Shown here in pieces: positions 9,554-30,694 of a stretch of DNA of 31,271 bases. A program made the translations under genes and the position numbers. The notes under the pieces are model-generated. The model ran no database searches and had not been told where the DNA came from. It saw only the letters and a list, made by a program, of their open reading frames with translations. Location: positions 1 to 31,271 of the IMG/VR virus record IMGVR_UViG_3300021085_000129. One strand, written 5' to 3'. This DNA is from a virus. Within the stretch, counting starts at the first letter, position 1. Every line of letters begins with the position of its first letter.

Positions 9554-12500
9554 ATGCCAGAGATTAAGAATCAGTTTACCGGTGGTAAAATGAACAAAGA
9601 TGTAGACGAGCGTCTTGTTCCTAAAGGAGATTATAGACACGCTGTTAATATTCAAGTTACAACTTCAGAAGGGTCTGATGTTGGTACCGTTCAAAATATA
9701 CTAGGTAATAGTCTTGCCATAACACCAGGTTTGCCTATAAACGATGCGTTAAGCTTATTCAACAACCACATATGTGTAGGTTCTATATCTAATGAAGCTA
9801 AAAATGAGCTTTACTGGATGTTAGCTGAGTACACTTGGAAAGATCAAATAACACAATCAGGCAATGTTCTTTTACAGCAAATTGTTCATACAAACTCATC
9901 ACCACTACTAAACGTTATAGCAACTAACTTTCAGAATTATAATAGTTTTAATTGGATTGTTGAAAGCAAATCCGCTATTGTTAAGTATAAAAACAACAAC
10001 GCTGAGTTGGTTTTTGTAGACAAAGCGTCTGTTACTATAAATGCTTGGGATGCTAATATAGGTTCAACAGACGGTGGTCAGTTTGAGGTGTTAGCTAGCG
10101 ACGTAGCTCCTTCTAGCTCTTTTACACCCACTATATCAAGTGGGTTTTCTAGTTTTGGTACTGGATATGGTTTTAATAATTCTACGATATTTCAATTAGA
10201 AGTTGGTGATGTTACAAATATAACAGCTGGTATGGACGTTGTTGGCGTCGGGTTAAACCCTCACACTAACGAAATAATGAATTTTTGGCCAAACACCTCT
10301 GTGTTAAGTGTTGAGCAAGTTGGAACATGGACAGATGTTAATGGAGATCAAAGAATACAGGGTATAGTTCAACTAAATAACACTACTGGAGGTTTTGGTT
10401 GTATCGCGGCGGACAACACGTATACTTACGCTCCTAACTTAGTTAATCCACCAAATTGTCCTAGCGCTTGGATTCCCATTCAAATGATTGTTACACACTG
10501 GGTTTTTCAATCTAAAACATTACAGTTAGATAGAAAAAACTTAATAACTGGAATAAATATCATTGATGATCTTTTATTTTGGACTGATAACTATTCAGAA
10601 CCAAAATGTATAAATATTACAGACAGCATAAAAGGTACTGATCAAACTGGTAATTTTCATACAGATATATTTGTTGAGGAAAGAGACATATTAGTTCCAG
10701 CTAGGGAAAAACATGTTACTGTTATTAAAAATGCACCTAAAAACCCTCCTATAATAAATTCAAAGCAAGGTAGAGATGGTAACTCTTATGGTATAGCGTA
10801 TCAAGTACCTACTGCTAATGCTGGGGTTGGAGACACTTTGACTATAGATATAACTTCTCCCTTTACAACTGAATTAAACTATCAAATTGGAGATGTTTTG
10901 GCTTTTAAACTATTAAGCTCTTACTTGTCAACAAATATAACTTCATTTTTTCCAATATCAACAAACTCTAATTACACTTTGTCTGGTTCTATAGTCTCTA
11001 TAGGTAGTTCTTCAGCTAGCGGTATGACAAGTGTATCTATAATTGTACAACAATTTGTTGGTAATTCATTAGGTAGTGACTACGCTGTTGACTTGTTAGA
11101 TAATTCTAAAGTATTATACAAACTAAAATTCCCAAGATTCGCGACTAGATATAAATATAAAGACGGTCAGTATTCTTCTTTTTCACCTTTCTCTGATGTT
11201 GCTTTTGTTCCCAGCAACTATGAGTATAACGCTACAACAGGTTTTAATATTGGCATGGAAAACAGTATTACCTCTGTTAGCTTAAAAGATATTATAACTT
11301 TAGATATACCAGAAGACGTTATAGATATAGATATACTGTATAAAGAGTCAGATTCTCCTAATGTTTATCTTTTAGAAACAATAACAAACCTACCTCAAAA
11401 ACTTCCAGTTCCGGCTGATACTTCTATTTGGAATCCTAAAAAATTAGACGACAACTACGAATACATAATAACGTCAGAAAACATCAACGCTTTAATATCT
11501 TCTGAGCAAATACTAAGAAGCTATGATAATGTGCCTAGGGCTGCTTTAGGTCAAGATATAGTTGGGAGTAGGCTGGTTTATGGTAACTACTTACAAAATT
11601 ACAATATAGAAAAAGAAAATATATCAATAAGCACATCTATATCTCCTTATCCAAATAACGAAAGATTTAAAAGTATAAAATCTATAAGAGACTACGAGGT
11701 AGGTTTAGTTTTTTCTGACAAATATGGTAGAGAAACACCTGTTATAACTAGCGAGCAGAATAAGGTGACTCTATCTAAGGCTAACGCGGACAAAAATAAT
11801 AGATTTAAAGTTTCTTGGAAAACCACTGATGGGTATCAACTTCCTGATTGGGTTGAATCTTATAAGTTCTACGTGAAAGAAACGTCAACAGAGTACTATA
11901 ATTTGTCTATGGATAGGTTCTACGATGCTGAAGATAGTAATATATGGCTTTCTTTTCCGTCTTCAGAAAGAAACAAAGTAGATATTGACACTTATTTAAT
12001 ATTAAAAAAAGAACAAAACTCTAGCAATTTAGTTTTAGCTGATTATAGATATAAAATTCTTGATATTAAAAACGAAGCCCCTAATTTTATAAAGGTAGAT
12101 AAAAAAGATTTAGCAAAAATTGTAGAAGGTCCTGTTACAAGCGCTAATAATGGTGGTAGTGGACTTCCTGTTACAACAACGGGCTTGTTGTTTGTTGACA
12201 ATACTACTAGTGCTTACCCTGACAGCGTCTTAGTAAATGGCTTGCCTGGCACTAAAAAACTACATGTTAAAGGCGACATTACTCCAACTGGAGTTAATCG
12301 TATTGGCGGTAGTGTAGGTCGTTTAAGACCTAGTGATTTAATAAGTGATGAGTATGAAGTAGAGGTTAGGATAAATACTTTTAAATCAAACTTTGTACAA
12401 GGCAACTATGTTACTTCTTGGAGAAAAATAAACAAAATAACTCATTACGGCAAAAACGGAGTAACTCTTGATACTTTACCTACTACATCAGCACAGCAAC

Positions 12501-15500
12501 AGGATTTCACTATACATTTATCAGAAGCTTGGGAGAACGATTCAAGTTTCTTTTTCACAGATCAAGTTGGTACAGTTACAGCCGAAGGTACAAACGGCGC
12601 GCCAGTTTTAGAGTTTAGAAAACTAATACGTAGAGATAACTTAGCAGAGTTTGCTGGTAGGTTTTTTGTTAAAATACTAAAAGATATAAGTTTCTACGAA
12701 CAAGTGTTAAGCCAAATGGGCAGTCAAACTTTAGTTCCTAAACTTCAACAAGATCTTGGTTATGTAAAAGATTTTACACAAGAAGATTTTAGTGGTCAAG
12801 GTAATATTTCCTCTAACTTTTTTACAACAGTTTCTAGTCAAATATCTGCTTTGCCACACCCTTGGGCTAGCGCTAGATATCCAGGTGGTGTAAGTGGAGT
12901 ACCTATACCAACTGACGCTTATTACCATCCATCAGCTTGGTCTTACATACATGATAAGTTAAACGCTACAACGGCAAAAGGTTTTTTTATTGACGAAGCT
13001 TTTGCTACTGGTATATCTCCGTTTTATAACTTTAGAGAGGCTTTTCAAACTCGTTTTGTAGATGATAGTGAAACTAGAGAAAGAAATCAAGTTGCTCTTT
13101 TTGGAGGTTGGGATTCTGCATCTTCACCTCAACCAACTTTAGATTACTACAGTAACGTTGATACAAACCTAAACTCTTTATACGCTTATCACAACCAGAC
13201 ATATAGCGATCAACTAACTGATTACACTGGATGCCAAACGGTAAGTGGTGTAACTAACGGTATCCCATCTAATTTAACTAACCCTTGCCCCGATAGAATA
13301 GCTGCTGTTGTATGGGAACCATTGTTAAACAACACTTCTTTATCTCAAAACAAATACTATCACGAGGGCAACGGAGCAGGTGCTTCGCCCGCCAACGTTC
13401 TTGATATATCTATAATAGGAGGTATTGGAAATGAGTGGAAACCTAGCCAAGGTGGTTTAGGTTTTACTCCTCATGATCCAAACGGTTTTGGGTATTTAAC
13501 TTGGAACGACGCGCAGTTAGCATTAACATCCTTAGACGATGCGCAACGTGATGTTATGTTTGAACTTTGTACTATAGGTAACAAATTTAGATTTGATAAC
13601 GATCCTACCGAGGAAGTGTTTACTATTTTAGATTTTAGAATACAATCAAAGAAAAATTATTCTGAAGGTTTTTATGACGATACTTACCCTGGTGCAATTC
13701 AGGCTGATCCAAATTTTAGCTCAAACTACCCTCATGACGGCTCAACTCCAATATCCGATAGTGTTAATTACACTGCAAATGCAAATCACAGGCATACTAT
13801 TAGCGTACTGTTAGATAAAGATATAGGTACAAGTGGTTACACTCCTACAGATGGGAGTATTGGTAATGTTCCTGGTTATGCTGGTAACTGGAACACACCA
13901 ACAATAACTGGCGACTTTGCTAAAATAGTGTTTTTAGAAGCACAGACGGTTTTTGATGGTTTTGGTGTTGACTCTAGTTTGAACCCCTCTATATGGGAGA
14001 CCGAACCAAAACAAAACGACGGTCTTGACATTTACTATGAAGCTAGTAGGTCTTACCCTTTTTCCATAAGTAAAGACAATGCTTTATTAAAAATGCCTAT
14101 TGGTAGTTTGATAAGACCTGACGATCCTTCTGTGCTAATACAACCTGGCACTACAGTTGTTGATTGGCAAGAAAGACAAATTAGTAACTCTATAGTTTTA
14201 GTAACAAACAAACCTTTGACGTTTGCAAACGAAGATATTATACGTTTTACTTTAGATGATGGATCAGAATCTCAAGCTGAGTTTTGGCAATCAGCAGCTT
14301 CGGCTACTTTTCCTAATGGACCAACAAACCCCTTAAATACAACTGGTACCGCTAATTATTTTCAATATTATGTTAGGCCGTTTAAACTAGGGCTGCTTAA
14401 TGGATTGTCTTGGAGTAACTGTTTTTCCTTTAACAATGGCGTAGAATCTAATAGTATAAGAGATGACTTTAATTCTGTGTCTATAGATAATGGAGCTATA
14501 GCCTCTGCAACTATTCTAGAGCCTTATGAAGAAGAACGTAGAAAAAGCGGTTTAATATTTTCTGGTTTATACAACTCTAACTCTGGCGTTAACAATCTAA
14601 ATCAATTTATAGCTGCTGAAAAAATAACAAAAGACTTAAACCCTACTTATGGTAGTATTCAAAAATTACACGCTAGAGATTCTGATTTAATTGCTTTATG
14701 TGAAGATAAAGTGATTAAAATACTAGCAAATAAAGATGCTTTGTTTAATGCTGATGGAAACCCTCAATTAACCGCTAACGAAAGGGTTTTAGGACAGAGT
14801 ATTCCTTTTGTTGGAGAGTTTGGTATATCTACAAACCCAGAATCATTTGCTTCAGAATCCTATAGAGTTTACTTTACTGACAAAGTAAGAGGGAAGGTTA
14901 TTAGGTTATCTATGGATGGGTTAACACCTATATCAGAGCATGGTATGAAAGATTATTTTAAGGATAATCTAAAGTCTAACGATAAAATTATAGGTAGTTA
15001 TGATGATAAAAAAGACGAATACAATGTAACTCTACCTAACACTGGAACAACTGTTTCTTTTAGCGAATCAGTTAGAGGTTGGGTTAGTTTTAAGTCATTT
15101 GTTCCTGAAAATGCTATTAGCTGCGCTAACGATTACTACACAATAAAAAATGGTGTAATATGGAAGCACCACGTCGAAACAATTCCTGAAACTAGAAACA
15201 AGTTTTACGGCGCTCATACTGAAAACGACTACTCATCGCTAGAAGTTATTTTAAATGATGCGCCTAGCGTTGTTAAATCGTACAAAACAATAAACTACGA
15301 GGGTAGTCAGTCTAAAGTTGATCAATTTGTTTCTAACACAAACCCTAACACTGGCGTGACTTTAAGTGACAATGAGTACTACAATCTAACGCTTAAAAAA
15401 GGTTGGTATGTAAATAATATAATTACAGATAAAGAAAAAGGTAGTGTAAATGAATTTATAGAAAAAGAAGGTAAATGGTTTAATTATATAAAAGGTAAAA

Positions 15501-17764
15501 ACGTTCAGTTGTCAACGGGCAATCAAATACATATTAATAATGACGGCAGCTCTTCTTTTGATCAAGCTAGTTTTAGTATACAGGGCTTAGGAGTATATGA
15601 TGGACCTGTAGCTGTACCAGTTCCTGGTTGTACAGATAACACTTTTGCAAACTATAATCCAAACGCGACTGTAGATGATGGTAGTTGTTTTAACCCACCA
15701 CCACCACCTCCAAATCCAATATATGGATGTACTGATGCTTCTGCAACAAATTATAATTCGTTATCAAATGTAGATGATGGTTCTTGTTTTTATACTGGAA
15801 TTGCTGTTTATGGCTGTATGGATGCATCAGCTACTAATTATAACTTTGCTTCAAATGTTAGTGACAACTCTTGTCTGTGGATGGGGTGTACAGACAATAG
15901 CGCTCTAAACACAACAGACTTTACAGCTGCTTACAATTACGCTGCGGCCAACAATATACCTGTAAATATTGCTGATGATGGTTCATGTATTGCTGTAGCT
16001 TTAGGTTGTACAGATCCTACGGCGTTTAATTATGATAACACAGCAACTGTTGATGATGGTAATTGCATACCAGTTATAACAGGTTGTATGGATCCTACGG
16101 CATCTAACTACATACAACCAACAGGTACTAGCTCTGATATAAACACTAGTGATCCTAACGCTTGTGTTTTTGACGGATGTACAGATGATACACCTGGTAT
16201 TAATCCAGATATCAATGGAAATATACCACCTTCTGGACCAAACATAACAGGTTACTTAGCTACAAACTATGATCCTGCTGCAAATAATGACGATGGTTCT
16301 TGTGCTTACAGTGTTGGTTGTACTGATCCTACACAAGCAAACTACAACCCATCAGCTCAAATAAACGATCCTAGTAATTGTATTGCTTGCGATTGGGTAC
16401 AAGGTGGCGTTTATCCTTACAATGGTAATCCTGTTGCTATTACTAATATAAATGAATCAACGCCAAACACAAATGACGGTCAAATTGCCGTTGAAGTAAA
16501 TGTAAACTTTCCTAATCCAACTGCTCAAGGTCAAACTTACACTCCGTTTACAATAGAGTTGTTAGACTCTAGTGGCGCTGTGGCTGTTTATACTTTTACT
16601 CCAAACTCAGGTTTATATAACTTTGTAAATTCAAACTCTATACTTTTCTCTAATTTAGCTCCAGGTGTATACACAGTTCAGGTTTTAAACGGCCCTAACC
16701 AGTATGGTGTTAGCGGTATATGTGAGTATAATGAAAACATAACTGTTTTAGTTGGTTCTCCAATATTAATACAAGGTTGTATGGATCCAAACGCTTGTGA
16801 TTACAATCCTCAAGCTAATGATTCAACGCCGTGTAATTACGCTACGTGCGCTGGTTGTATGGACAATGCTTTTCCAGCTGATAATTATGGTTCTCAAACT
16901 GGTACCGGTGGAGTTGGCCAAATGGGAACTCCTTGTATCAGTTTAATAAACGGAAACATTAGCAATCTTTGTACGATACAGTGTGGTGATACTAGCAGTG
17001 CGACGCCTCAAGGTAATGGTTGTTGCGCTTACACTATACCTGGGTGTACGGACGGTAGTACAGATGCTAACGGAAACAATGTAATGTTTAATTATAATCC
17101 TGTAGCTACTGTGGATGATCTTTCATGTATACTTGCTTTTTATGGTTGTATAGATCCTACAGCATTAAACTATAATTCTTTAGCAAATGTAGATAATGGA
17201 ACATGTATACCAAACATCGTTGGTTGTATGGATTCTACTGCGCTGAATTATGACGCTACAGCTACTGTAGATTCAACTCCAACTAGCTGTTGTTATATCT
17301 CTGGTTGTACTGATCCAGCTTATCCAAACTATAACCCAAGTGCGTGTCAAGACGATGGTAGTTGCGCGCATGTTTACGGGTGTATGACAGCAACAGCTTG
17401 TAATTTTGACTGCTCAACAGCTTTGAACTCTGGCTCTACAACACCTTGTACTGACGGTGTTTCTATGGATGATAACAGTTGTGTGTTTGGTGGTTGTACA
17501 GATCCACTTTCTTGCTTTTTTGATCAAGCGTTAGCAAATACATTTCCTTGTACTGATGACGACCAATGCATATACCCAGGTGTACCTAACAATAACATAG
17601 GTTATAATGCCGTGGAAAACAATGCTGGCATACCAGGTTGCGCTTGTGAACAGCCGTCTCCTTGTGATCAAGTTACTGGCAACAATGCAACTACCTTTGC
17701 AACTTTAAATGATTGTTTAAATGCAGTTGCTCAAAACTCCGACTGTAATACGTCTACCCAATAA
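9554..17764 (+). CDS. Giant tail hub/receptor-contact protein with Cys-rich repeat C-terminus
   Basis: A 2736-residue virion protein. The N-terminus 'KNQFTGGKMNKDVDERLVPK' followed by 'RHAVNIQVTTSEGSDVGTVQ' resembles the opening of tail hub proteins in short-tailed phages (P22 gp10 / T7 gp12 type; crAss-like phages have similar starts). The body to about 2015 is beta-rich. It includes a Gly-Met beta module near G226-M227 and, at about 1690-1830, segments such as 'LIALCEDKVIKILANKDALF' and 'VYFTDKVRGKVIRLSMDG' that look like propeller blades. From G2025 to the end there are about 17 Cys-rich 'GCTD...DDGSC' units, interrupted at 2279-2407 by a SprB-like domain, with a six-Pro linker at 2048-2053. 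No signal peptide. The likely role is central tail hub with an extended cell-contacting C-terminus. Role of the N-terminus is fairly sure; receptor contact is inference. Confidence 0.78.
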   Translation: MPEIKNQFTGGKMNKDVDERLVPKGDYRHAVNIQVTTSEGSDVGTVQNILGNSLAITPGLPINDALSLFNNHICVGSISNEAKNELYWMLAEYTWKDQITQSGNVLLQQIVHTNSSPLLNVIATNFQNYNSFNWIVESKSAIVKYKNNNAELVFVDKASVTINAWDANIGSTDGGQFEVLASDVAPSSSFTPTISSGFSSFGTGYGFNNSTIFQLEVGDVTNITAGMDVVGVGLNPHTNEIMNFWPNTSVLSVEQVGTWTDVNGDQRIQGIVQLNNTTGGFGCIAADNTYTYAPNLVNPPNCPSAWIPIQMIVTHWVFQSKTLQLDRKNLITGINIIDDLLFWTDNYSEPKCINITDSIKGTDQTGNFHTDIFVEERDILVPAREKHVTVIKNAPKNPPIINSKQGRDGNSYGIAYQVPTANAGVGDTLTIDITSPFTTELNYQIGDVLAFKLLSSYLSTNITSFFPISTNSNYTLSGSIVSIGSSSASGMTSVSIIVQQFVGNSLGSDYAVDLLDNSKVLYKLKFPRFATRYKYKDGQYSSFSPFSDVAFVPSNYEYNATTGFNIGMENSITSVSLKDIITLDIPEDVIDIDILYKESDSPNVYLLETITNLPQKLPVPADTSIWNPKKLDDNYEYIITSENINALISSEQILRSYDNVPRAALGQDIVGSRLVYGNYLQNYNIEKENISISTSISPYPNNERFKSIKSIRDYEVGLVFSDKYGRETPVITSEQNKVTLSKANADKNNRFKVSWKTTDGYQLPDWVESYKFYVKETSTEYYNLSMDRFYDAEDSNIWLSFPSSERNKVDIDTYLILKKEQNSSNLVLADYRYKILDIKNEAPNFIKVDKKDLAKIVEGPVTSANNGGSGLPVTTTGLLFVDNTTSAYPDSVLVNGLPGTKKLHVKGDITPTGVNRIGGSVGRLRPSDLISDEYEVEVRINTFKSNFVQGNYVTSWRKINKITHYGKNGVTLDTLPTTSAQQQDFTIHLSEAWENDSSFFFTDQVGTVTAEGTNGAPVLEFRKLIRRDNLAEFAGRFFVKILKDISFYEQVLSQMGSQTLVPKLQQDLGYVKDFTQEDFSGQGNISSNFFTTVSSQISALPHPWASARYPGGVSGVPIPTDAYYHPSAWSYIHDKLNATTAKGFFIDEAFATGISPFYNFREAFQTRFVDDSETRERNQVALFGGWDSASSPQPTLDYYSNVDTNLNSLYAYHNQTYSDQLTDYTGCQTVSGVTNGIPSNLTNPCPDRIAAVVWEPLLNNTSLSQNKYYHEGNGAGASPANVLDISIIGGIGNEWKPSQGGLGFTPHDPNGFGYLTWNDAQLALTSLDDAQRDVMFELCTIGNKFRFDNDPTEEVFTILDFRIQSKKNYSEGFYDDTYPGAIQADPNFSSNYPHDGSTPISDSVNYTANANHRHTISVLLDKDIGTSGYTPTDGSIGNVPGYAGNWNTPTITGDFAKIVFLEAQTVFDGFGVDSSLNPSIWETEPKQNDGLDIYYEASRSYPFSISKDNALLKMPIGSLIRPDDPSVLIQPGTTVVDWQERQISNSIVLVTNKPLTFANEDIIRFTLDDGSESQAEFWQSAASATFPNGPTNPLNTTGTANYFQYYVRPFKLGLLNGLSWSNCFSFNNGVESNSIRDDFNSVSIDNGAIASATILEPYEEERRKSGLIFSGLYNSNSGVNNLNQFIAAEKITKDLNPTYGSIQKLHARDSDLIALCEDKVIKILANKDALFNADGNPQLTANERVLGQSIPFVGEFGISTNPESFASESYRVYFTDKVRGKVIRLSMDGLTPISEHGMKDYFKDNLKSNDKIIGSYDDKKDEYNVTLPNTGTTVSFSESVRGWVSFKSFVPENAISCANDYYTIKNGVIWKHHVETIPETRNKFYGAHTENDYSSLEVILNDAPSVVKSYKTINYEGSQSKVDQFVSNTNPNTGVTLSDNEYYNLTLKKGWYVNNIITDKEKGSVNEFIEKEGKWFNYIKGKNVQLSTGNQIHINNDGSSSFDQASFSIQGLGVYDGPVAVPVPGCTDNTFANYNPNATVDDGSCFNPPPPPPNPIYGCTDASATNYNSLSNVDDGSCFYTGIAVYGCMDASATNYNFASNVSDNSCLWMGCTDNSALNTTDFTAAYNYAAANNIPVNIADDGSCIAVALGCTDPTAFNYDNTATVDDGNCIPVITGCMDPTASNYIQPTGTSSDINTSDPNACVFDGCTDDTPGINPDINGNIPPSGPNITGYLATNYDPAANNDDGSCAYSVGCTDPTQANYNPSAQINDPSNCIACDWVQGGVYPYNGNPVAITNINESTPNTNDGQIAVEVNVNFPNPTAQGQTYTPFTIELLDSSGAVAVYTFTPNSGLYNFVNSNSILFSNLAPGVYTVQVLNGPNQYGVSGICEYNENITVLVGSPILIQGCMDPNACDYNPQANDSTPCNYATCAGCMDNAFPADNYGSQTGTGGVGQMGTPCISLINGNISNLCTIQCGDTSSATPQGNGCCAYTIPGCTDGSTDANGNNVMFNYNPVATVDDLSCILAFYGCIDPTALNYNSLANVDNGTCIPNIVGCMDSTALNYDATATVDSTPTSCCYISGCTDPAYPNYNPSACQDDGSCAHVYGCMTATACNFDCSTALNSGSTTPCTDGVSMDDNSCVFGGCTDPLSCFFDQALANTFPCTDDDQCIYPGVPNNNIGYNAVENNAGIPGCACEQPSPCDQVTGNNATTFATLNDCLNAVAQNSDCNTSTQ
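15626..17761 (+). repeat. About 17 Cys-rich DDGSC-type protein repeats
   Basis: Coding tandem repeat of irregular spacing inside the giant tail protein (residues 2025-2736). The consensus unit is Gly-Cys-Thr/Met-Asp-Pro-x-Ala-x-Asn-Tyr-Asn-x-x-Ala-x-x-Asp-Asp-Gly-Ser-Cys, about 20-25 residues plus a linker. Good units start at G2025, G2058 and G2087. Later units carry insertions or extra Cys, and the last (G2695) is degenerate. Each unit has two framing Cys, suggesting one disulfide per unit, and the Asp-Asp-Gly could bind calcium. Such repeats are common in secreted flavobacterial proteins. The DNA copies have diverged, so this is an old protein repeat and not a recent duplication. Confidence 0.9.
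16388..16774 (+). other. SprB-like Ig-type domain inserted among the Cys-rich repeats
   Basis: Residues about 2279-2407 break the Cys repeat series. The segment has 'NTNDGQIAVEVNV', then strands 'YTPFTIELLDSSGAVAVYTF', then 'LAPGVYTVQVLNG' and a closing 'GICEYNENITVLV'. The order 'nDGqI.v.v ... pf.i.l ... nLapGvYtV.V.n' matches the look of SprB repeat domains of Bacteroidota gliding adhesins. The domain assignment is by eye and the first part is longer than a usual SprB unit. Confidence 0.55.
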
Positions 17765-17775
17765 ATTAAAAAAAT

Positions 17776-18138: not shown

Positions 18139-18148
18139 ATATTAAATT

Positions 18149-20233: not shown

Positions 20234-20258
20234 AAAAAATAATTAAAATAAATAAGAT

Positions 20259-20951
20259 ATGAGTTTTGGTGCAATGGCAGTAGCTGGAATAGGCGCTGGG
20301 ATTAGCTTGATAAACGCTAATAAAAATAGATTGGACGCTAAAGAGATTGTAGGTGATGCTGAAATAGAAAGAAACAAACAACAAGATTTATTAAACAAAC
20401 AAAAAGCACAGTATAAAGCTATGGAGTTTAAAAATCCTTTTGCAGACATGGAAAATACTTTTGAAGATTTAACCGTTAATCAACAGCAAGCTCAGTTTCA
20501 AGCTCAGCAAGGTGCTCAACAAAGAGCAAATATAATGCAAAGTATGAAAGGCGCTGCTGGTGGTAGTGGTATTGCTGGTTTAGCACAAGCTATGGCAAAC
20601 CAAGGTCAACTGCAAACTCAAGCTATATCAGCGTCTATAGGACAACAAGAATCTAGAAACCAAGCTTTAGCGGCTAAAGGAGCTGCTAGCGTACAGTCGA
20701 TGCAAAGACAAGGTGATCAATACGTTCAACAGCAAGAAGCTAATAGGCAAGCAACACTTTTAGGTATGCAAATGGGTGAAACTGCTGGGGCTAACACAGC
20801 TCTTCAAACTGCGGAAGGTAACCTAGCAAACGCTCAAGTTGCGCAGCAACAGATAGTTGCTAACGCTTTTGGAACTTTTGCCCAAGGTCTTGCGTCTAAC
20901 GCTGATACGCTAGGCGGTACAGATAACAATATATTCACACCAAAAATATAA
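20259..20951 (+). CDS. Pilot/ejection-like internal virion protein
   Basis: A 230-residue Ala/Gln-rich protein. The first 20 residues, 'MSFGAMAVAGIGAGISLINA', form a Gly/Ala-rich hydrophobic segment without a cleavage site, like the membrane-seeking start of T7 gp14-type and microvirus pilot proteins. The rest is helix-forming, with many Gln ('NQQQAQFQAQQGAQQRANIM', then 'GAAGGSGIAGLAQAMANQGQ'). It has no Cys. The gene sits between the cupin and a run of large proteins that look like internal virion proteins. The likely role is to enter the cell envelope during DNA ejection. Function is inferred from composition and position. Confidence 0.66.
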   Translation: MSFGAMAVAGIGAGISLINANKNRLDAKEIVGDAEIERNKQQDLLNKQKAQYKAMEFKNPFADMENTFEDLTVNQQQAQFQAQQGAQQRANIMQSMKGAAGGSGIAGLAQAMANQGQLQTQAISASIGQQESRNQALAAKGAASVQSMQRQGDQYVQQQEANRQATLLGMQMGETAGANTALQTAEGNLANAQVAQQQIVANAFGTFAQGLASNADTLGGTDNNIFTPKI

Positions 20952-20954
20952 AAC

Positions 20955-22535
20955 ATGGCATCAGATATAAACTTAATAAAAGCATCTTTTGATCTTGCAA
21001 ATAGTAAAGCCGCGGCTAACGTGCCTGATATGTCTAAAACCTATAAGTCTACCGTAGATGTTGGTAAAATGTACCTAGACGTAGTCTCTGGTATTGGAAA
21101 AGAAATGGCTTTAGATAGAAAGAAAAACGAATTAGGCCGCGAAAAACAACTTGAGAGTCTAAAGTCTGTTATAAAAAGAAACTTCTCTGAGATGTATAAA
21201 AAAGGCGGTAATCAAGGTGAGGAAACTATAATGGCTGTTCGTGAAGGTGTAAAGAAAATACAAGAAGATTTTGAAAGAGTTAATACTTATGGTGATAATG
21301 ACAACGATGAAAACGAGTACGCTAGAATACAATTAGAAGCTAGAGCTGCTAAGTTAATATCAAGCGTAACAAACTCTAGAGAGTTTTTTGGTCAATTAGG
21401 AGGTAGAGTTGACAACTTGAGAGTTGAAGACATAACTAAATTTAAAGGACATCTTTTAGACCCGATGCGTAGAGCTATGGATATAGACAACCATAAAAAC
21501 GACCCTGGAGTTATCGTTAGGTATGATCACGAAAAAGAAGATTTAGTGTATGAGGTAGACGGTGATTTTAGTATGACTCTTGATGAAATGGTTAAAAGTT
21601 TACCGGAGTACGATACGGCTAAACATAACAGAATAGCTGCATTTTTTAATACAGCTTCTGATACTGCTAAAATTGACGCTGGAGCAGAAACACCTGTTAA
21701 TCAGTTTGAAAACAATGATTATTTACAGGGTCAAAAAATTGAATTTAAAAAAGAAATAAATAATGAAGAAGACTTTTTAGATATATCTGGAGCTAAAATT
21801 ATTGGTGATCGTAGTTTTAGAGAGGCTTTAATTAATAGGGCTGATATATCTGTCGCTGCTATAAGAACTATGGTTGGCGAAAATGAAGCTGACATTGGCG
21901 CTCTTTACGCTGCTATGGATCATGATAATTCTGGTGGAATAAATTTTGATAAAGATTTAGCTGAACTAAAAACAACAGAAGCTAGAGAGGAATTTAAGAA
22001 AAACTACGAGCTTCTAATAGATGCTATAACAAACCCTGAGAATACAGCTTTCAACCTATCGATGTCTAAAGATCTTTTAGCTGACTATTACGTTGGATTG
22101 AAAAAACAAAATTACGACAACACCTATAACTACTACAACAAAAAAAGCAAAGAGAATTATGATAAAGACATCCCTGGTAATTATGAAATAGGTGGAAAGA
22201 GAGGTGTTTTTGACCCTATGGGCGGTACTAATGGTTCTGGTTTTAGAAGAGGTTTATGGAAAAGCAACCAACAATTAGACGTGAATAAGCAAATAACAAA
22301 GATGAGAAAACGTGAAAAGTTCTTTGATTACCTAGGTAATACTTGGAGAATGGGTGGAGATGGAAAAATACGTGGTTTTCACGCTGGATCTAATAATGAA
22401 GTTATATACGAGTGGGATAACAACCTTGGCGAGTACCTTGATGGAAAGGAAGATAGAGCTAGAAAAATTAAGAAGTTTACAGAGCAAGAAGCATTAGATA
22501 TGTTGTTTGGAATGGGATCGCAAAATATAGGTTAA
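20955..22535 (+). CDS. Unknown helical protein, probable internal virion protein
   Basis: A 526-residue charged, mostly helical protein with no signal peptide or membrane segment. I do not recognise a family. The N-terminal 120 residues are coiled-coil-like ('ALDRKKNELGREKQLESLKS'). The middle is mixed, and residues 322-333 ('DHDNSGGINFDK') look like a calcium-binding EF-hand loop, with Asp/Asp/Ser in positions 1, 3 and 5 but Lys in place of the final Glu. The C-terminal part is rich in Tyr, Asn and Gly, ending in a small strand domain with 'GNTWRMGGDGKIRGFHAGSN'. It begins three bases after the preceding stop and is followed 14 bases later by the giant polyvalent gene, so it is probably an ejection protein made with its neighbours. 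Confidence 0.6.
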   Translation: MASDINLIKASFDLANSKAAANVPDMSKTYKSTVDVGKMYLDVVSGIGKEMALDRKKNELGREKQLESLKSVIKRNFSEMYKKGGNQGEETIMAVREGVKKIQEDFERVNTYGDNDNDENEYARIQLEARAAKLISSVTNSREFFGQLGGRVDNLRVEDITKFKGHLLDPMRRAMDIDNHKNDPGVIVRYDHEKEDLVYEVDGDFSMTLDEMVKSLPEYDTAKHNRIAAFFNTASDTAKIDAGAETPVNQFENNDYLQGQKIEFKKEINNEEDFLDISGAKIIGDRSFREALINRADISVAAIRTMVGENEADIGALYAAMDHDNSGGINFDKDLAELKTTEAREEFKKNYELLIDAITNPENTAFNLSMSKDLLADYYVGLKKQNYDNTYNYYNKKSKENYDKDIPGNYEIGGKRGVFDPMGGTNGSGFRRGLWKSNQQLDVNKQITKMRKREKFFDYLGNTWRMGGDGKIRGFHAGSNNEVIYEWDNNLGEYLDGKEDRARKIKKFTEQEALDMLFGMGSQNIG

Positions 22536-22549
22536 AATAAAATATAAAT

Positions 22550-25500
22550 ATGAACGAAGAAATATTAAATAATATTTGGAACACGTTGTCTAACGATCCA
22601 AACGCTAGCCTTAAAGCGCAAGATTTTGAAGAATGGAAAAATAGTTTTATTAATAATAAAAATATACAGTCTAACGTGTATGATTATTTAAAACAAAACC
22701 ACAACGTAAAAGCTAACAACTTAGAAGAGTGGATAACTGGCGTGATGGGAAAGACAGAAGGTACTCAGGAAATAGATGCGCCTGTAGTACCGAACGTAAA
22801 TTTTTCCGGCAGTACGGAATTAGCATCGGAGCTTTCTGGTTTGGGTTTAGATGGACAAGAACTAAAAACATATGAAGACGGTTTAAATAAAGCTCTTGCA
22901 AAAACTGAAGTTGAAATGGAAGAGGTTTTAAAGTTAGCGGAAAAAGCTCCAACCTCACAGTATCTTGCTACAAAAGGTTTTCTTGGGCAGTTTGAAAAAA
23001 GGAATGTTTACGCATTTCAAGATTTTTTAAATGAAGATCAATCTAACATAGAAGAAGCTAAAGAAAAGTGGATACAGCAAGAAAGAGAAAAAATTCAAAG
23101 TAGAAACCTAGAAAAGGTTTTTGAAGAATTAAAAAGCGATGTTTTACCCTGGTGGACTGGGCCTGTTGGAATATATGGTTCGGCAAGAAAAATACTAGGC
23201 CCACAATCTTCTGTTGTAATGATAAATGAAGATGGTGAAAAAATCGAACAAACACCAGATGCGCTACCTTTTGGTTTAGGAAAGCAAGAGGAAAAATATG
23301 AAAAAGTTAGAAATATTTTGCATAAAGAGTATATTAGTCAGATGGAAACAATAAACTCAGAAGCAGAAGTTGTAGTCGATAACATAGAACTTTCTGTTGG
23401 TCAAATGAATTTGATTGATTATGAGTTGCAGGCATTAAAGTCTGAATATGAGCGAAACCCGCCAAGCTCTCAAGAAGCAGTTGATTATTTTAACGACTTA
23501 GTGGCTAAAAGAAAAACACTATTTAATACTTATAAGACAAACCTAGATAAACTAAACCAGTCAGACGTAAACTACGATAGCTTAGCAGATATTGCTGATA
23601 TGGTAAAAAGAACTTATAGTAAAGTGCAAGTTGCAGAAAATAGAGTTGAAAGCACTGTGTTAAGGCTTCAATCAGGTTTACTTAAAACTTTAAAAGAATC
23701 AACAGTTGGACTGGAAGAAAAATTTTTAAATGTTGATTTAAACTCAGAAGAAAATTTAGAGCTAGTTAGTGATTTTATGAGACCACTAGCTAAAGGCATG
23801 GGTAATTTAGGTGATGCTATGGATAAAAAATCTTTAGATTTATACAATAAATCTGAAAAAATAAATGAGTTTACCCAAAAAAGACAGGACACGGATATAA
23901 AATCAGTTGAAGATTTAGGAGAGTTTGTTTTAGATCTTTTTAGCGAACAAGCGGTAAACACTGCTTTAACACTAAGCATGAATGGTTTGGGTTTAGGTAT
24001 TATAGCCGCGGGCGCCACTGGTAATAAGTTTACAGCTATGGATAAAGATTTTGCTGAAGGTAAAATTTCTATGTCTCAATATTACGCGGCTGGAGTAGGT
24101 TACGGTCTTGCTGAGTATATTACTGAAAGAGTTTCTTTAGCAAACTTAAAACTAGGTATGAAAGGTTTTAGAAGAGCTTTAGATTTAGCTGGTGGTAAGT
24201 ACACTTTAAAAAGTTTTAGTTTCAAAAAATCATTAGCTATTTATGGTAAAGCTGTTGGATCTGAAGGTTTTGCTGAATTTTCTGCGTCAGTACTTCAAAA
24301 CGCTTTAGATAGATACGCATTAGAAGACAAGTCTGTTGGACTTATGGATGGTACTAAGGAAGCTTTTTGGTCAGGCGCGGCTATGGCTGGTTTAGGTTTT
24401 AATGCTCCAGCTTTAGCAGCTGCAGCTTATAGAGCAGCTACTCCATCAAAAGGTTGGGATAAAATAAATGAAAATACAAGAAAATTAATAGAACTTTCGG
24501 AGGTTTTTGAACAAATAGCTCTTGGGCCTAGAACACAAGAAACATTAGATCAAGCTAAAGCTGTTAGAGCTCAAATGGATGAGCTACTAAGAGATAACAT
24601 AAAACAAAAAGGTTTGGCAGAAAGAAGAGTAGATCAACTTTCAAATAACGAGAAAAGAACCTTAATAGATCTAGAAATAAAAAGAAATAAGTTTGCAAAC
24701 CAAATAGATAAGGTTAACGAGAATAAAAAGCTTTCAGAAAAACAAAGAAAAGATTTAATAAATAGATACGCAAAGCAAATATCAAAATTAGAAAGTAAAA
24801 AAGATTTAATATTAAATAGCGCTATGTACTCTAGTGACATGCGTAAAACTACAAAGTTAACTTTAGAAGACGCTATATTAAAAGGCTTAAATATAAAGAG
24901 TATACAAGCTGAAAACAATGATGACGCGCTAAAGCAAGCTATAAAGCATGTTGACAACTCTGATTTAACTGCAGAGCAAAAAAAAGAATTAAAAGATAAA
25001 TTAAAACAAACGTTTGACCAAGTAGACGTTTATGTTCATGGTTTTGCTATTGGTAAAAAACAAGGCTTGCCAATGCAGTTTCAAATGAAAAGCAATGCTA
25101 CTAACAACAGTACTGGCAACGCTTCAGTGCACTCTCACGAGCTAGGTCATAATTCTGTTCTTAGTAAAATTCTTGAAGGTAACGGAGATATGCTTGGACT
25201 TGTTGATGAATTTGAAGGTTATATTAGAAATAGGTTTAAAGGGCTTACTGAATTTGTAGAAAAAGAAGGTAGGTTTCAATTGACTCAGTATGCAACTACA
25301 AAAGAAGCTGTAACTAAAGAGTTAAAAAAAGAGCTTGGTAGAAAACCAACAGATCAAGAGGTCAAAGATAGAATATACTTAAACAAAGTAAGTATAGCCG
25401 AAGAAAAGCTAGCTGTTGCTATAGACTATATACGTCAATTTCATAATGAAAAAATAGACAAATCTTTCAAAGGTAAACTGTTGGATATGTGGAATAAGAC

Positions 25501-28500
25501 TAGAAACGCCGATGATATTAATGAAATACAAAACGGTGAAGATGTATATAACATGCTAACTAGTTTTGTTGCTGGTTTTGAAAAAGGCGAAATGAGCGGT
25601 TTAGCTGCAAGAGTAATATCTGGAAAAGTTAAAGCTCGTGCTCGTAACGCTAAAGAAGTAGAAGACAACAGAGTAAGAGAGCAAAAGTCAGCAACAAAAT
25701 CTATAAACGATTTTGGCAAAAAAATTGTAGATAAAGACGGTACTGTAACAGATTTAGAACAGAAAGGCCAGGGTAACTATTATTTTAAAGTTGAAGCTAA
25801 AAATATTTGGAAGCAAATACAAGAACAAGGTTTATTAGATGGTCTTATATTAGCTCAACCACACGAAGGCGTTAACAATAAAGCTTTTTTAGACACTACC
25901 TATGCAGAGCTTTTTTCTTGGTTTGAAAAATATCAACCTGAAAGAAAAAATTCTAGTGGTTTATTTGGTCATATAAACCCTCAAATACCTAATAGAGCAA
26001 AACAAGCTTATAACGTTATAACAAAAGGTGAGATAAAATACACTAAAGAAATAGGTGAAACAACTAAAGAAGGTGAGGTTAAAATTCAAGTTGCAGCTGA
26101 AACCACTAACGAAATGAAACAGCTTGAGGAAAAAGACATGTCTATTCAAGCTCAGGCACAAGAAAAAGAAGACAAACAAAAAGTAAAACAACAAAAAGAA
26201 TCTAAGTTTAGAAAAGCTCTTGGTATAGAAACAGGTGGTGTTTTATACATGAAAGTTTTAGATGCTGCTAGAAACAGCTTGTTAAGAGCGTATAGCACAA
26301 AAGACACGGTTAGACAAATACAAAGAAACCTAAGAGATCAAGCGAATAGGTATTTATTTAAGGATATTAAAAACTTTTTAGGTACGATTAAGTATAGATC
26401 TAATTTAAAGCAATACAGAGAAAACATAATGGAAAGCTTGTTTGTAGCTGACTTAGTGCAAATGGAAAGAGAGGTACCTGAAGCTGATAGAGTGTTCACT
26501 AAATTTGTTAAAAAACTTACCACAAAACAAGAGGTTATAGATGCTGTTGATCAAAATCTACTTCCACCATCAGCTATAAACGCGTACATTAAAGATAAGT
26601 CTGTTAACTTGTACGAAAAAGCAAGGCCTACTGAAGAGCAGTTTTTAGCATATTTTATGATACCAGCAATAAACCCTGTTACAGGTTTAAGGTCTGGTAA
26701 AAAAGGCACTAGAAAAGATACACTAGCAAAAAACATGGCTGGCGCGTTAGCTTATGATGCTACGATGCAAGTCGCTCAAGAACAAGATATAATTGAAAAA
26801 CGGCAAGAACTTGCTGATGCTAGAGGTGAAACTTTAGTTGAAGACAATTTAGATCAACTTGCTGTTTCTATAAGTAGAAATATAGATGTTAAATTTTCAA
26901 ACAAGTCTAATGAAAATAGAATTATATCAAACATGGCTGGCGAAATAATTAGTTTAACTAACGAGATGAGGACTAATGCTGGCTTGGTAACATATGAAGA
27001 TGGTCAGTATAAAATAAACTCTACGGTTTGGAAAAGATGGACTAAAAAAGCTAAATTTAAAAAATCTGATTTAGCCATTATAGCTGAATTCACCTACAAA
27101 GCATATAGATCGGAGCGGTATAGTAGGCTAACAGATTACGAAATAGCTACAAAAGTGCTAAAAACAGTAATAAAAGCTAGAAAAAATAAAAATGATATAA
27201 AAGTCCATCAAGCATTTGAGCAAATGATTATATCATCGTTGCAATATGCTGTTCAGAATATAAACTCTAGACTAAGGACGAACAAAAAAGTAAAAGAAGG
27301 AGTTGGTCAAGGCGATGCTTATATTAGTTACGGTAAAAATATACTTGGTATTGAGGTTAAAATGAATGAAGCAGATGGCGTTTCTCAAACTGTAAATGTA
27401 ATTCAAAACGAAAATGGAGAGTACTCTTTAAGCTACGCTAATGAAAACCCAACTACAAATGAAAATGGTGATACCTACGATAGCTTAATAGGTATTGAAA
27501 TACAAATAGCTTTAAAAGAATTAAATAAAAAGTTAAAAGAAAATAATTTAGGCGAAATTAAGAATGGCAACCAACTTTCTCCAAAACAAATTAAATATAT
27601 ACAAGATAATAATTTAAAAACAGAACTGTTTAAACATATAGATGTTAGCGAAATATATGCTGCTTGGCATTATGCTAATGGAAAATATACTAATAAACCA
27701 CAAGGATTTATTCAAGTAGGAAAAAGTTTGTACAGAATGATTACTGGCAATAGTAATTTAGACGGTTTAACAAGTTCTATTGTACAAGCGTTTAAAGGCG
27801 ATATACCTATTTTTAAAACGGAAAATGGAATAAAAATGCAGCTTCAAGCTAGATTAGACACGCAAAATGGAGTGTTAAAGTTTAGAGTTTCTCCTAGAAT
27901 AATAGATAACGAGTTAGTTAAATCTAATGTTAATCTTTTAAAACCTACAAATGCTGTAGAATTTGCCAAAGCTGTTGAAAAAGTAATGATACCTTTTAGC
28001 AGAGCGGAAAACTCCAACAACATACAAAAAGCTGTGCAATTTTCTAGATCCGCGAATAACCCAACAAAAGGTATTACTGTTTTAGATTTTGACGATACAC
28101 TTGCTACAACTAAATCGTTAGTTAAATTTACTAGACCAGATGGTACAACTGGTACTTTAAACGCAGAGCAATATGCTAGTACTTATGAAAACTTATTAGA
28201 TCAAGGTTACACTTTTGACTTTTCAGAGTTTAATAAAGTTGTAAAAGGTAAGTTAGCACCGTTGTTTCAAAAAGCTTTAAAGCTACAGGGTAAGTTTGGC
28301 TCTAAAAATATATTTGTATTAACAGCAAGACCACCTGCTGCTCAGAAAGCTATATTTGATTTCTTAAAAGCTAACGGATTAAATATACCTATTGATAATA
28401 TAACTGGTTTAGGCAACTCTACAGCTGAAGCTAAAGCTCTTTGGATGGCTGAAAAAGTTGGCGAGGGATATAATGACTTCTATTTTGCTGATGATGCTTT

Positions 28501-30694
28501 ACAAAACGTACAAGCTGTAGCCAATATGTTAGATCAACTTGATGTTAAATCTAAAGTTCAACAAGCTAGAGTAAAGTTTAGTAAAGGTATGAACGATACT
28601 TTTAACAATATATTAGAGGAAATTACAGGTATTGAAAGTCAAAAACGTTTTTCAGCTATTAAAGGTAGAAAACGTGGCGAGGACAAAGGTAAGTTTAGAG
28701 TGTTTATACCACCATCACATGAAGATTTTGTAGGTTTATTATATAACTTTATGGGTAAAGGTAGAAGAGGTGATGCTCATAGAGATTTTTTAGAGCAAGC
28801 TTTAGTTAGACCTTTAAATAGAGCTTATAGAGAACTAGATACTGCTAAGCAAGCTATAGCAAATGATTATAAAAAATTAAACGAGCAATTTCCCGATGTA
28901 AGTAAAAAGCTTATAAAAAACACTCCAGATGGTGATTTTACTTTTCAAGATGCTATTAGAGTTTATTTATGGAATAAACATGGTCATAAAATACCTGGTT
29001 TAACAGAAACTGATCAAGCTAAATTAACTAAGCTAGTAGAGTCAGATCCACAGCTTCAGGCGTATGCTGAAACTTTAAATGTTATATCTAAGCAAAAAGA
29101 TTATGTAGCCCCAGGTCAAGCATGGGAAACAGCTAACATAAGAATTGATTTAGTTGACGCTACAGGTAGAGTTGGTAGAGCTCAATATCTTTCTGAGTTT
29201 ATAGAAAATGCTGATGTATTGTTCTCTGAAGAAAACTTAAATAAAATTGAGGCTGCTTATGGTAAAGATTTTAGAGAGGCTTTAGAGGATATGTTACATA
29301 GAATTAAAACTGGTGTTAATAGACCTAAAGGTCAAAGTGGTAAACCAAATAAGTTTTTAAATTGGTTAAACGCTTCTGTTGCTGGTGTTATGTTTTTTAA
29401 CACTAGATCTGCTCTGTTACAGCAACTTTCTAATGTTAACTACTTAAACTTTGCTGATAACAATATACTAGCTGCAGGTAAAGCTTTTGCTAATCAAAAA
29501 CAATATTGGAAAGACTTTGCGTTTATACTTAACTCAAACATGTTAAAGCAAAGGCGTGGTGGTATTGGTACTGATGTAAACGGTGCTGAACTTGTAGAAG
29601 CTATTAAAAAAGCTAGGCCAGATAGTATGTTTGATCAAGTAGCTATTATAACAGGTAAACTACTTAGATTAGGTTTTTTACCTACGCAAATGGGTGATAG
29701 TATTGCAATTGCTACTGGTGGTGCGGCATTTTACAGAAATAGAGTAAACACATACTTAAAACAAGGTTTGAGTCAAAAAGAAGCTGAGGCTAAAGCTTTT
29801 ACTGATTTTCAAGATATAACTCAGTCTACACAACAGTCAGCTAGACCTGATATGACATCACAACAACAGGCTAGTTGGATAGGTAAGTTGGTATTAAACT
29901 TTTTAAATACACCATCTCAATATAATAGAATAATTAAAAAAGCAGGTAGTGATCTTAAAAACAGAAGAATAACAAAACCTAACACTAGTCAAACGCAAAG
30001 TGATATGTCTAACTTGTCTAGAATATTATATTACGGCGCTGCTCAAAATTTAATATTCTACGGTTTACAAACAGCATTGTTTGCGGTTATGTTTGGTGAT
30101 GATGATGATGATGAGAGCGAGGCGTTTTTAAAGAAAAAAGAAAGAGTTATAAATGGCTCTATAGATACTATATTAAGAGGTTCTGGTATATACGGCGTTG
30201 CTTTGTCTACTATTAAAAACATGATGATTAAGTTTGCGGAGCAAAGAGAGAAAGGTTATAACAAAGACGAAAGCGCTGTCATAATGGAAGCTTTAAACTT
30301 TTCACCTGTACTAGGTATTAGAGCTAGAAAAATAGTTAATGCTGAAAAAACGCTTAATTATAATACTAAGGTTATTGATGAAATGACAACTTTTGATATT
30401 GACAATCCACAATGGTCAGCTGTAACTAATTATGTTGAAGGTACAACTACTTTACCTGTAAATAGATTATATCAAAAAACAATAAATGTAAGAAATGCTT
30501 TAGATAATCAGTATACAGCATTTCAAAGAGCAATGTTCTTTAGTGGTTATACAACTTGGAGTTTAGATCTTGGTGATACTGAAAAGATGAAAAAAATAAA
30601 ACAAGATATTAAAGCTAAAGCTAAAAGAAAAAAGAAAAGTAAAGGTAGAAGTCAATTGAGATCAAAGCCAAAAGCAAGATCGAGAAATAGGTAA
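22550..30694 (+). CDS. Giant polyvalent internal virion protein (peptidase-, nuclease- and phosphatase-like modules)
   Basis: A 2714-residue multidomain protein of the 'polyvalent protein' style described for phages and conjugative elements, likely packaged and injected with the genome. Order: two short helical motifs at 1-70 ('DFEEWKNSF', 'NLEEWITGV'); coiled coils; a Gly-rich hydrophobic segment at 470-490; a coiled coil at about 640-790; a zincin-like site at 863-867 (HELGH); a region near 1160 with 'SGLFGHINPQIPNRAKQAYN', a motif type I recall from large polyvalent proteins; a PD-(D/E)xK-like signature at 1557-1604; a HAD phosphatase at about 1838-2000; helical segments; membrane-like stretches at 2274-2284 and 2489-2516; an Asp run; and a strongly basic tail (about 2680-2714). 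'FS[RKNA]' motifs recur at module edges. Which modules are active is inference. No RNA polymerase or transglycosylase motif was found. Confidence 0.8.
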   Translation: MNEEILNNIWNTLSNDPNASLKAQDFEEWKNSFINNKNIQSNVYDYLKQNHNVKANNLEEWITGVMGKTEGTQEIDAPVVPNVNFSGSTELASELSGLGLDGQELKTYEDGLNKALAKTEVEMEEVLKLAEKAPTSQYLATKGFLGQFEKRNVYAFQDFLNEDQSNIEEAKEKWIQQEREKIQSRNLEKVFEELKSDVLPWWTGPVGIYGSARKILGPQSSVVMINEDGEKIEQTPDALPFGLGKQEEKYEKVRNILHKEYISQMETINSEAEVVVDNIELSVGQMNLIDYELQALKSEYERNPPSSQEAVDYFNDLVAKRKTLFNTYKTNLDKLNQSDVNYDSLADIADMVKRTYSKVQVAENRVESTVLRLQSGLLKTLKESTVGLEEKFLNVDLNSEENLELVSDFMRPLAKGMGNLGDAMDKKSLDLYNKSEKINEFTQKRQDTDIKSVEDLGEFVLDLFSEQAVNTALTLSMNGLGLGIIAAGATGNKFTAMDKDFAEGKISMSQYYAAGVGYGLAEYITERVSLANLKLGMKGFRRALDLAGGKYTLKSFSFKKSLAIYGKAVGSEGFAEFSASVLQNALDRYALEDKSVGLMDGTKEAFWSGAAMAGLGFNAPALAAAAYRAATPSKGWDKINENTRKLIELSEVFEQIALGPRTQETLDQAKAVRAQMDELLRDNIKQKGLAERRVDQLSNNEKRTLIDLEIKRNKFANQIDKVNENKKLSEKQRKDLINRYAKQISKLESKKDLILNSAMYSSDMRKTTKLTLEDAILKGLNIKSIQAENNDDALKQAIKHVDNSDLTAEQKKELKDKLKQTFDQVDVYVHGFAIGKKQGLPMQFQMKSNATNNSTGNASVHSHELGHNSVLSKILEGNGDMLGLVDEFEGYIRNRFKGLTEFVEKEGRFQLTQYATTKEAVTKELKKELGRKPTDQEVKDRIYLNKVSIAEEKLAVAIDYIRQFHNEKIDKSFKGKLLDMWNKTRNADDINEIQNGEDVYNMLTSFVAGFEKGEMSGLAARVISGKVKARARNAKEVEDNRVREQKSATKSINDFGKKIVDKDGTVTDLEQKGQGNYYFKVEAKNIWKQIQEQGLLDGLILAQPHEGVNNKAFLDTTYAELFSWFEKYQPERKNSSGLFGHINPQIPNRAKQAYNVITKGEIKYTKEIGETTKEGEVKIQVAAETTNEMKQLEEKDMSIQAQAQEKEDKQKVKQQKESKFRKALGIETGGVLYMKVLDAARNSLLRAYSTKDTVRQIQRNLRDQANRYLFKDIKNFLGTIKYRSNLKQYRENIMESLFVADLVQMEREVPEADRVFTKFVKKLTTKQEVIDAVDQNLLPPSAINAYIKDKSVNLYEKARPTEEQFLAYFMIPAINPVTGLRSGKKGTRKDTLAKNMAGALAYDATMQVAQEQDIIEKRQELADARGETLVEDNLDQLAVSISRNIDVKFSNKSNENRIISNMAGEIISLTNEMRTNAGLVTYEDGQYKINSTVWKRWTKKAKFKKSDLAIIAEFTYKAYRSERYSRLTDYEIATKVLKTVIKARKNKNDIKVHQAFEQMIISSLQYAVQNINSRLRTNKKVKEGVGQGDAYISYGKNILGIEVKMNEADGVSQTVNVIQNENGEYSLSYANENPTTNENGDTYDSLIGIEIQIALKELNKKLKENNLGEIKNGNQLSPKQIKYIQDNNLKTELFKHIDVSEIYAAWHYANGKYTNKPQGFIQVGKSLYRMITGNSNLDGLTSSIVQAFKGDIPIFKTENGIKMQLQARLDTQNGVLKFRVSPRIIDNELVKSNVNLLKPTNAVEFAKAVEKVMIPFSRAENSNNIQKAVQFSRSANNPTKGITVLDFDDTLATTKSLVKFTRPDGTTGTLNAEQYASTYENLLDQGYTFDFSEFNKVVKGKLAPLFQKALKLQGKFGSKNIFVLTARPPAAQKAIFDFLKANGLNIPIDNITGLGNSTAEAKALWMAEKVGEGYNDFYFADDALQNVQAVANMLDQLDVKSKVQQARVKFSKGMNDTFNNILEEITGIESQKRFSAIKGRKRGEDKGKFRVFIPPSHEDFVGLLYNFMGKGRRGDAHRDFLEQALVRPLNRAYRELDTAKQAIANDYKKLNEQFPDVSKKLIKNTPDGDFTFQDAIRVYLWNKHGHKIPGLTETDQAKLTKLVESDPQLQAYAETLNVISKQKDYVAPGQAWETANIRIDLVDATGRVGRAQYLSEFIENADVLFSEENLNKIEAAYGKDFREALEDMLHRIKTGVNRPKGQSGKPNKFLNWLNASVAGVMFFNTRSALLQQLSNVNYLNFADNNILAAGKAFANQKQYWKDFAFILNSNMLKQRRGGIGTDVNGAELVEAIKKARPDSMFDQVAIITGKLLRLGFLPTQMGDSIAIATGGAAFYRNRVNTYLKQGLSQKEAEAKAFTDFQDITQSTQQSARPDMTSQQQASWIGKLVLNFLNTPSQYNRIIKKAGSDLKNRRITKPNTSQTQSDMSNLSRILYYGAAQNLIFYGLQTALFAVMFGDDDDDESEAFLKKKERVINGSIDTILRGSGIYGVALSTIKNMMIKFAEQREKGYNKDESAVIMEALNFSPVLGIRARKIVNAEKTLNYNTKVIDEMTTFDIDNPQWSAVTNYVEGTTTLPVNRLYQKTINVRNALDNQYTAFQRAMFFSGYTTWSLDLGDTEKMKKIKQDIKAKAKRKKKSKGRSQLRSKPKARSRNR
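25007..25549 (+). other. Zincin-like metallopeptidase domain in the giant protein
   Basis: Residues about 820-1000. The zinc-site motif is 'SVHSHELGHNSVL' with H863, E864 and H867. E951/E952 in 'VSIAEEKLAVAIDYI', about 85 residues later, is a good candidate for the third ligand, as in gluzincin-type sites. A segment about 60 residues further on, 'INEIQNGEDVYNMLTSF', is often found beside such zincins in polyvalent proteins in my recollection. Activity is not proven; a cut of the giant protein itself or of a host protein would fit. Confidence 0.68.
27182..27409 (+). other. PD-(D/E)xK nuclease-like signature in the giant protein
   Basis: Residues about 1545-1620. 'GQGDAYISYGKNILGIEVKM' holds D1589, then E1602-V-K1604 after 12 intervening residues, the classic D-(x10-15)-ExK spacing on a beta hairpin. 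Upstream, 'HQAFEQMIISSL' gives E1557 in a helix, where many members of this superfamily have a conserved Glu. The core strand-turn-strand is clear, but the rest of the fold cannot be confirmed by eye. Role inferred: DNA cleavage. Confidence 0.5.
28061..28549 (+). other. HAD-superfamily phosphatase domain in the giant protein
   Basis: Residues about 1838-2000 hold all four HAD motifs. Motif I is 'VLDFDDTLA' (nucleophile D1846, D1848). Motif II is 'VLTARP' (T1925). Motif III is likely K1962 in 'AEAKALWM'. Motif IV is 'FYFADDALQNV' (D1981, D1982). The set looks intact, so activity is plausible. The 'TARP' form recalls polynucleotide 3'-phosphatase and acid phosphatase branches, but the substrate cannot be read from sequence. 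Confidence 0.85.

Follow-up and report, generated by a model that had tools for sequence, protein, structure and literature searches.

At the downstream end of the structural gene array of a short-tailed phage lies a single reading frame of 2714 residues, and its composition raises the question of what one protein, encoded at this location, could be doing with the sites of a peptidase, a nuclease and a phosphatase. The window analysed here is the whole 31271-base virus record IMGVR_UViG_3300021085_000129 (IMG/VR), in which the genes run from terminase through portal, a capsid-type protein, structural genes, a muzzle-type giant protein, a short tail fibre and two smaller genes to the frame at 22550-30694. 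This order is syntenic with gp090-gp101 of Cellulophaga phage phi38:1, a podovirus of the Pervagoviridae, and phage phi40:1 is likewise syntenic; the giant gene is the positional homologue of gp101 in both. Portal, muzzle and gene order together point to a Pervagoviridae/Crassvirales-like podovirus of Bacteroidota. The genes that bear on this are as follows.

9554..17764, + strand: muzzle-type tail protein, 2736 aa (Pfam crAss_MUZ_C, E 5.9e-7; PHROG 14478, E 2.8e-126), which fixes the phage type
20259..20951, + strand: 230-aa protein at the gp99 position, upstream of the giant gene, with a hydrophobic N-terminus; candidate ejection protein
20955..22535, + strand: 526-aa virion-type protein at the gp100 position, upstream of the giant gene; phi40:1 gp100 is annotated from MS/MS
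22550..30694, + strand: putative giant polyvalent-type virion protein, 2714 aa; single ATG-started open frame, uninterrupted

The muzzle-type frame also carries, at 15623-17365, at least six diverged copies of a GCTDxxAxNYNxxAxVDDGSC-type repeat resembling Bacteroidota surface-protein repeats, and similar DNA is present in the sister frame (21371-23563) of the closely related stretch L003.

The whole giant protein has no significant domain in Pfam or PHROGs and no significant match to PDB sequences by phmmer, so that all of the evidence rests on comparison with its relatives, which are encoded in 156 IMG/VR stretches, the best 80 of the 156 being kept. A sequence-only reading of this frame had described an HExxH site, a PD-(D/E)xK-like site and a full set of HAD motifs, and each of these is backed by conservation in relatives, giving three independent conserved enzyme sites (zincin, PD-(D/E)xK and HAD) in one chain. 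The ranges that it proposed for the zincin and HAD domains were right, whereas the nuclease is better drawn at residues 1473-1834. Its hydrophobic segments were overstated: every 19-residue window has a Kyte-Doolittle mean of at most 1.5, and by this measure the giant protein contains no strong transmembrane segment.

25136..25150, + strand: HExxH site H863-E864-x-x-H867 (HELGH, residues 863-867)
25403..25405, + strand: E952, probable third zinc ligand of the HExxH+E type
26966..28051, + strand: putative PD-(D/E)xK nuclease domain, aa 1473-1834, in an exchangeable slot; supported by conservation and by predicted strands at D1589 and E1602-K1604
27218..27361, + strand: PD-(D/E)xK site, with E1557 at 27218-27220, D1589 at 27314-27316 and E1602-x-K1604 at 27353-27361

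An HExxH motif is found in 67 of the 69 relatives of at least 2200 aa, and is expected in only ~0.85% of shuffles of the giant protein; its place is fixed, lying 845-1194 residues upstream of the HAD motif in relatives. The surroundings are so divergent that many versions fail to align by BLAST, and in an alignment of 50 sequences with ~14% identity the only invariant columns are H863, E864, H867 and E952. Because these 50 sequences were picked for holding HExxH, the invariance of the first three residues is partly by construction; that of E952 is free of this effect. There is thus strong evidence for a peptidase at the HExxH position, the four residues being the predicted ligand and catalytic set of an HExxH+E zincin.

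The nuclease site required a different argument, as a PD-(D/E)xK pattern in a single sequence is worthless alone: D...ExK occurs 28 times in the giant protein and 22 times in shuffles. Conservation in homologues indicates that the site is real. Residues E1557, D1589, E1602 and K1604 are among nine positions invariant in eight aligned relatives, with identity to the window protein as low as 17%, and four held-out relatives match the nuclease profile (E 2.6e-19 to 1.5e-6) and keep the D, E and K, with a literal P-D in three of the four. The nuclease is absent from that slot in two relatives, L020 and L021.

In the predicted models HExxH lies on a helix preceded by strands, and a helix is followed by strands at the nuclease D and ExK. 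Foldseek of the two large models, one with the zincin region and one with the nuclease region, returned nothing significant from the PDB, probably because both are multidomain. PDB profile searches with the zincin, nuclease and HAD alignments gave no relevant match.

28055..28597, + strand: HAD phosphatase domain, aa 1836-2016; best family match, Pnkp-type 3'-phosphatase
28085..28099, + strand: HAD motif I, D1846-x-D1848-x-T1850, aligning with T4 Pnkp D165/D167/T169
28139..28156, + strand: HAD cap site, identified by comparison with relatives, some of which have a kinase-like insert that is absent here
28322..28330, + strand: HAD motif II, T1925-A-R1927, conserved in relatives
28433..28435, + strand: HAD motif III, K1962 (T4 K258)
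28490..28495, + strand: HAD motif IV, D1981-D1982 (T4 D277/D278)

All of the HAD motif residues (D1846, D1848, T1925, R1927, K1962, D1981 and D1982) are invariant in ~80 relatives, the motifs of six insertion-bearing relatives having been read by hand. The idea that DFDDT belongs to an RNA polymerase was discarded, the T-R-K-DD set that follows being that of a HAD. The phosphatase of the sequence-only reading can be refined, its best match being the Pnkp-type 3'-phosphatase family. Pfam DUF2608 matches 44 of 48 HADs, with generic HAD models matching weakly, and the top PHROG is phrog_415, 'polynucleotide kinase', which matches 38 of 48 HADs, with 1e-7 as the best value and 9e-5 for the window protein. 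The phrog_415 profile matches the 3'-phosphatase half of T4 Pnkp (8.6e-26) as well as the giant proteins of L039 (1.2e-9) and L003 (4.6e-6); direct hhalign of the HAD to T4 Pnkp is weak and covers motif I only. Since the Pnkp 3'-phosphatase is the best family match, end repair is a more plausible role than that of a generic phosphatase.

The likeness to T4 Pnkp (PseT) extends to the aligned catalytic residues, the common PHROG family and a kinase partner in some relatives. T4 Pnkp differs in being a free enzyme with an N-terminal kinase, whereas the giant-protein relatives that have a kinase carry it within the HAD, after motif I and before motif II, and in the spacing of these two motifs, which is 46 in T4 Pnkp and 79 in the giant protein. 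Four relatives (L060, L061, L071 and L074) carry at this position a P-loop domain of ~200 residues that matches polynucleotide-kinase profiles (phrog_505, 1.2e-10) and, weakly, the structures of CthPnkp, the Clostridium Pnkp kinase (0.0017), and T4 Pnk (0.04). A separate scan yielded 27 kinase loci, some of them on contigs already counted; in 25 loci motif I precedes the P-loop by 34-37 residues, and 26 have HExxH. Although the window protein itself has no 5'-kinase domain, gene fusion with the nested kinase is the strongest reason to regard the HAD as a repair enzyme for nucleic-acid ends, and nesting a kinase within a phosphatase would be a new layout for a known enzyme pair. We note that other inserts occupy the cap site elsewhere, of ~45 residues in L034, L057 and L075 and of ~67 residues in L020 and L021. 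L125 and L126 (frame from 3373) encode a giant zincin protein with a polynucleotide-kinase-like domain and no HAD motif, and L128 and L131 belong to a single contig, IMGVR_UViG_3300025131_000066, with two giant kinase-HAD frames on opposite strands, representing either two paralogues or a chimeric assembly.

Which ends might be repaired is suggested by the ligases encoded nearby. Of 31 contigs from relatives, 14 encode an ATP-dependent DNA ligase, whereas no RNA ligase was found in the contigs of the viral relatives searched and no RtcB in the giant-protein relatives searched, all of these contigs being mostly fragments; DNA end repair is therefore somewhat favoured over tRNA repair, and a T4-type tRNA repair cycle with its own RNA ligase is unsupported. 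Phage phi38:1 (L081, record 19292-20377) does encode an RtcB-type RNA ligase.

Nucleotidases are well established among the HAD families, and a nuclease and a phosphatase within one chain could also serve host takeover and nucleotide scavenging, the nuclease degrading host DNA, the HAD stripping phosphates and the products feeding phage replication. We consider this quite improbable, as the best HAD family is the Pnkp 3'-phosphatase and relatives insert a polynucleotide kinase, both of which indicate end repair, and as the nuclease slot often holds something else while the HAD stays.

The remaining parts of the chain are as follows.

22550..22756, + strand: fixed N-terminal ~69 residues, at the end of a conserved DNA island before the swapped cassette; homologous N-terminus in L021
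22757..25682, + strand: swapped cassette, aa ~70-1044, within which module A and the zincin lie; DNA without similarity to that of sister L003
23837..24889, + strand: module A, aa ~430-780; all-helical model, common to gp101 of phi38:1 and phi40:1
25742..26944, + strand: module B, aa ~1065-1465, a putative module; profile in 18 relatives, i.e. part of them
28598..30619, + strand: conserved helical C-terminal region, aa 2017-2690; fold like parts of named large polyvalent proteins
30575..30691, + strand: basic tail, 19 K/R and 3 D/E in 39 residues

The sister stretch L003 has 93-94% DNA identity to the window at 12539-22164 and from 25683 to the window end, and at the counterpart of 22757-25682 it has an unrelated 2.9-kb cassette with a different zincin, within which protein identity drops from 95% to ~22%. 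The left boundary is sharp, with a conserved island of 233 bases (22524-22756, 93% DNA identity to L003) followed by an abrupt loss of similarity. Close DNA searches with the zincin region alone matched only the L003 contig, and this seeming rarity turned out to reflect cassette exchange. In most other pairs of giant proteins whose C-termini share at least 85% identity, the front halves are likewise unrelated. The constant parts are the HAD and the C-terminal domain, and the exchanged ones are the zincin cassette and the nuclease slot; the combination of peptidase, nuclease and phosphatase in the sequence-only reading is thus present here, but it is not fixed across relatives.

A second stretch is replaced in L003, at 22165-22523, corresponding to the last ~130 residues of the upstream 526-aa virion-type protein, whose C-terminus is possibly a co-adapted partner or substrate of the zincin cassette. 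Co-exchange of the two as a general rule was rejected, not being general in other close pairs. The joint change in this one sister pair would fit a role in virion morphogenesis only, in which the giant protein is an internal ejection or scaffold-like component, the zincin matures virion proteins, and the nuclease and HAD take part in packaging or entry mechanics with no effect on defence; this is also in keeping with a place after the muzzle gene, beside virion proteins annotated by MS/MS, and with the zincin being the most constant cassette function despite its changing sequence. We regard so restricted a role as unlikely, however, because near-identical phages swap whole cassettes rapidly, which better fits an arms race than a fixed mechanical role, and because morphogenesis has no need for a Pnkp-type HAD, sometimes with a nested kinase.

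Several observations suggest that the giant protein is carried in the virion. In phi40:1, gp097-gp101 are annotated as structural from experimental MS/MS proteomics. Phage gp101 resembles the giant protein in its equal place in the gene order, in its homologous module A and, by the phi40:1 annotation, in being a virion protein; it differs in its length of 1691 aa and in having neither HExxH nor a HAD motif, and its C-terminal similarity to the giant protein is not significant, such that the homology with phi40:1 is limited to module A and position. An unbiased tblastn search matched module A to gp101 at 3e-7, with 28% identity over aa 505-756; an iterated profile recovers module A in 24 relatives, phi38:1 included, its E-values including training hits and not being counted as proof. 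In a Foldseek search of BFVD, which gave 57 matches at E <= 1e-3, the model of the C-terminal region resembled large proteins named as polyvalent, and this region is probably a virion or ejection anchor. Homology thus speaks well for a place of the giant protein in the virion, from which it would be delivered. Virion presence being deduced from homologues, one could also imagine a late polyprotein that never enters the particle and works in the producing cell only; gene order, the MS/MS annotation of the phi40:1 homologue and the polyvalent-type C-terminal fold make this highly improbable.

These data agree with the earlier description of a virion-type multi-enzyme protein in a short-tailed Bacteroidota phage, for which synteny, the muzzle domain, the phi40:1 gp101 MS/MS annotation and the Foldseek polyvalent matches all speak, and with its very basic tail. 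The proposal that the protein may constitute a new system was too strong, as polyvalent proteins with a zincin already form an established class (PMC5512222). According to that source, the zincin is a hub domain of the polyvalent proteins of phages and conjugative elements, present in ~36% of known ones, and the giant protein appears to share with them its very large size, its multidomain architecture, its location near terminase, portal and structural genes, its zincin and its unrelated effectors in one chain. It differs in having no recognised LPD, no LPD-type domain being detected by Pfam in the giant protein (such domains are usual, not obligatory, in the class), and in having a fixed HAD and C-terminus with a swapped front. 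Text searches of PMC5512222 found no HAD phosphatase there, and the paper states that the ParB DNases of polyvalent proteins occur without other DNase domains. The PNK-HAD enzymes with which jumbo phages heal ends are free phage repair proteins (PMC7824862). In crAss001, the large cargo proteins gp45-gp50 are encoded after the muzzle gene, as is the giant gene here, and are stored in capsid and tail; large crAss001 cargo is RNA-polymerase-associated (PMC10172136), whereas no such domain is recognised in the giant protein, which has putative peptidase, nuclease and phosphatase domains instead. Judged from sequence, the giant protein is a polyvalent virion protein of a known kind, and an unusual one in combining an end-repair HAD that stays fixed with peptidase and nuclease slots that can be swapped and, in some members, with a nested Pnkp.

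The best explanation, to which we assign a probability of roughly 0.6, is a virion-carried polyvalent protein from which a peptidase releases a nuclease and a 3'-phosphatase that act early on nucleic acid. The helical C-terminal and module A regions, by their homologues and fold, would anchor the protein in the particle and lead it, together with the DNA, through the tail. As assembly or entry proceeds, the zincin would most likely divide the giant chain into units, and it may also cleave host proteins. The released units would be the PD-(D/E)xK nuclease and the Pnkp-type 3'-end phosphatase, with a nested 5'-kinase added in some relatives, and nucleic acid would be their substrate during the first minutes after infection begins: the nuclease would cut, and the HAD would clear 3'-phosphate ends that a ligase could then seal. 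Such end cleaning might shield the incoming genome or host RNAs from damage by defence systems. More tentatively, the protein may be a phage counterpart of polymorphic toxins, a constant C-terminal anchor and a constant end-repair phosphatase, which some members have as a Pnkp with a nested kinase, being furnished with exchangeable peptidase and nuclease cassettes as a pre-made counter-defence delivered before phage gene expression.

If the preferred explanation holds, Bacteroidota phages bring along in their particles ready-made enzymes for end repair and cutting, these enzymes are diversified through the exchange of cassettes in an otherwise almost unchanging phage, and Pnkp-type repair joins the functions delivered with phage DNA. 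The window and its sister L003 would then provide a natural comparison of which host barrier each cassette answers. We also note a relative (L082) in a short contig binned with Aliivibrio, which is probably a mis-binned phage contig.
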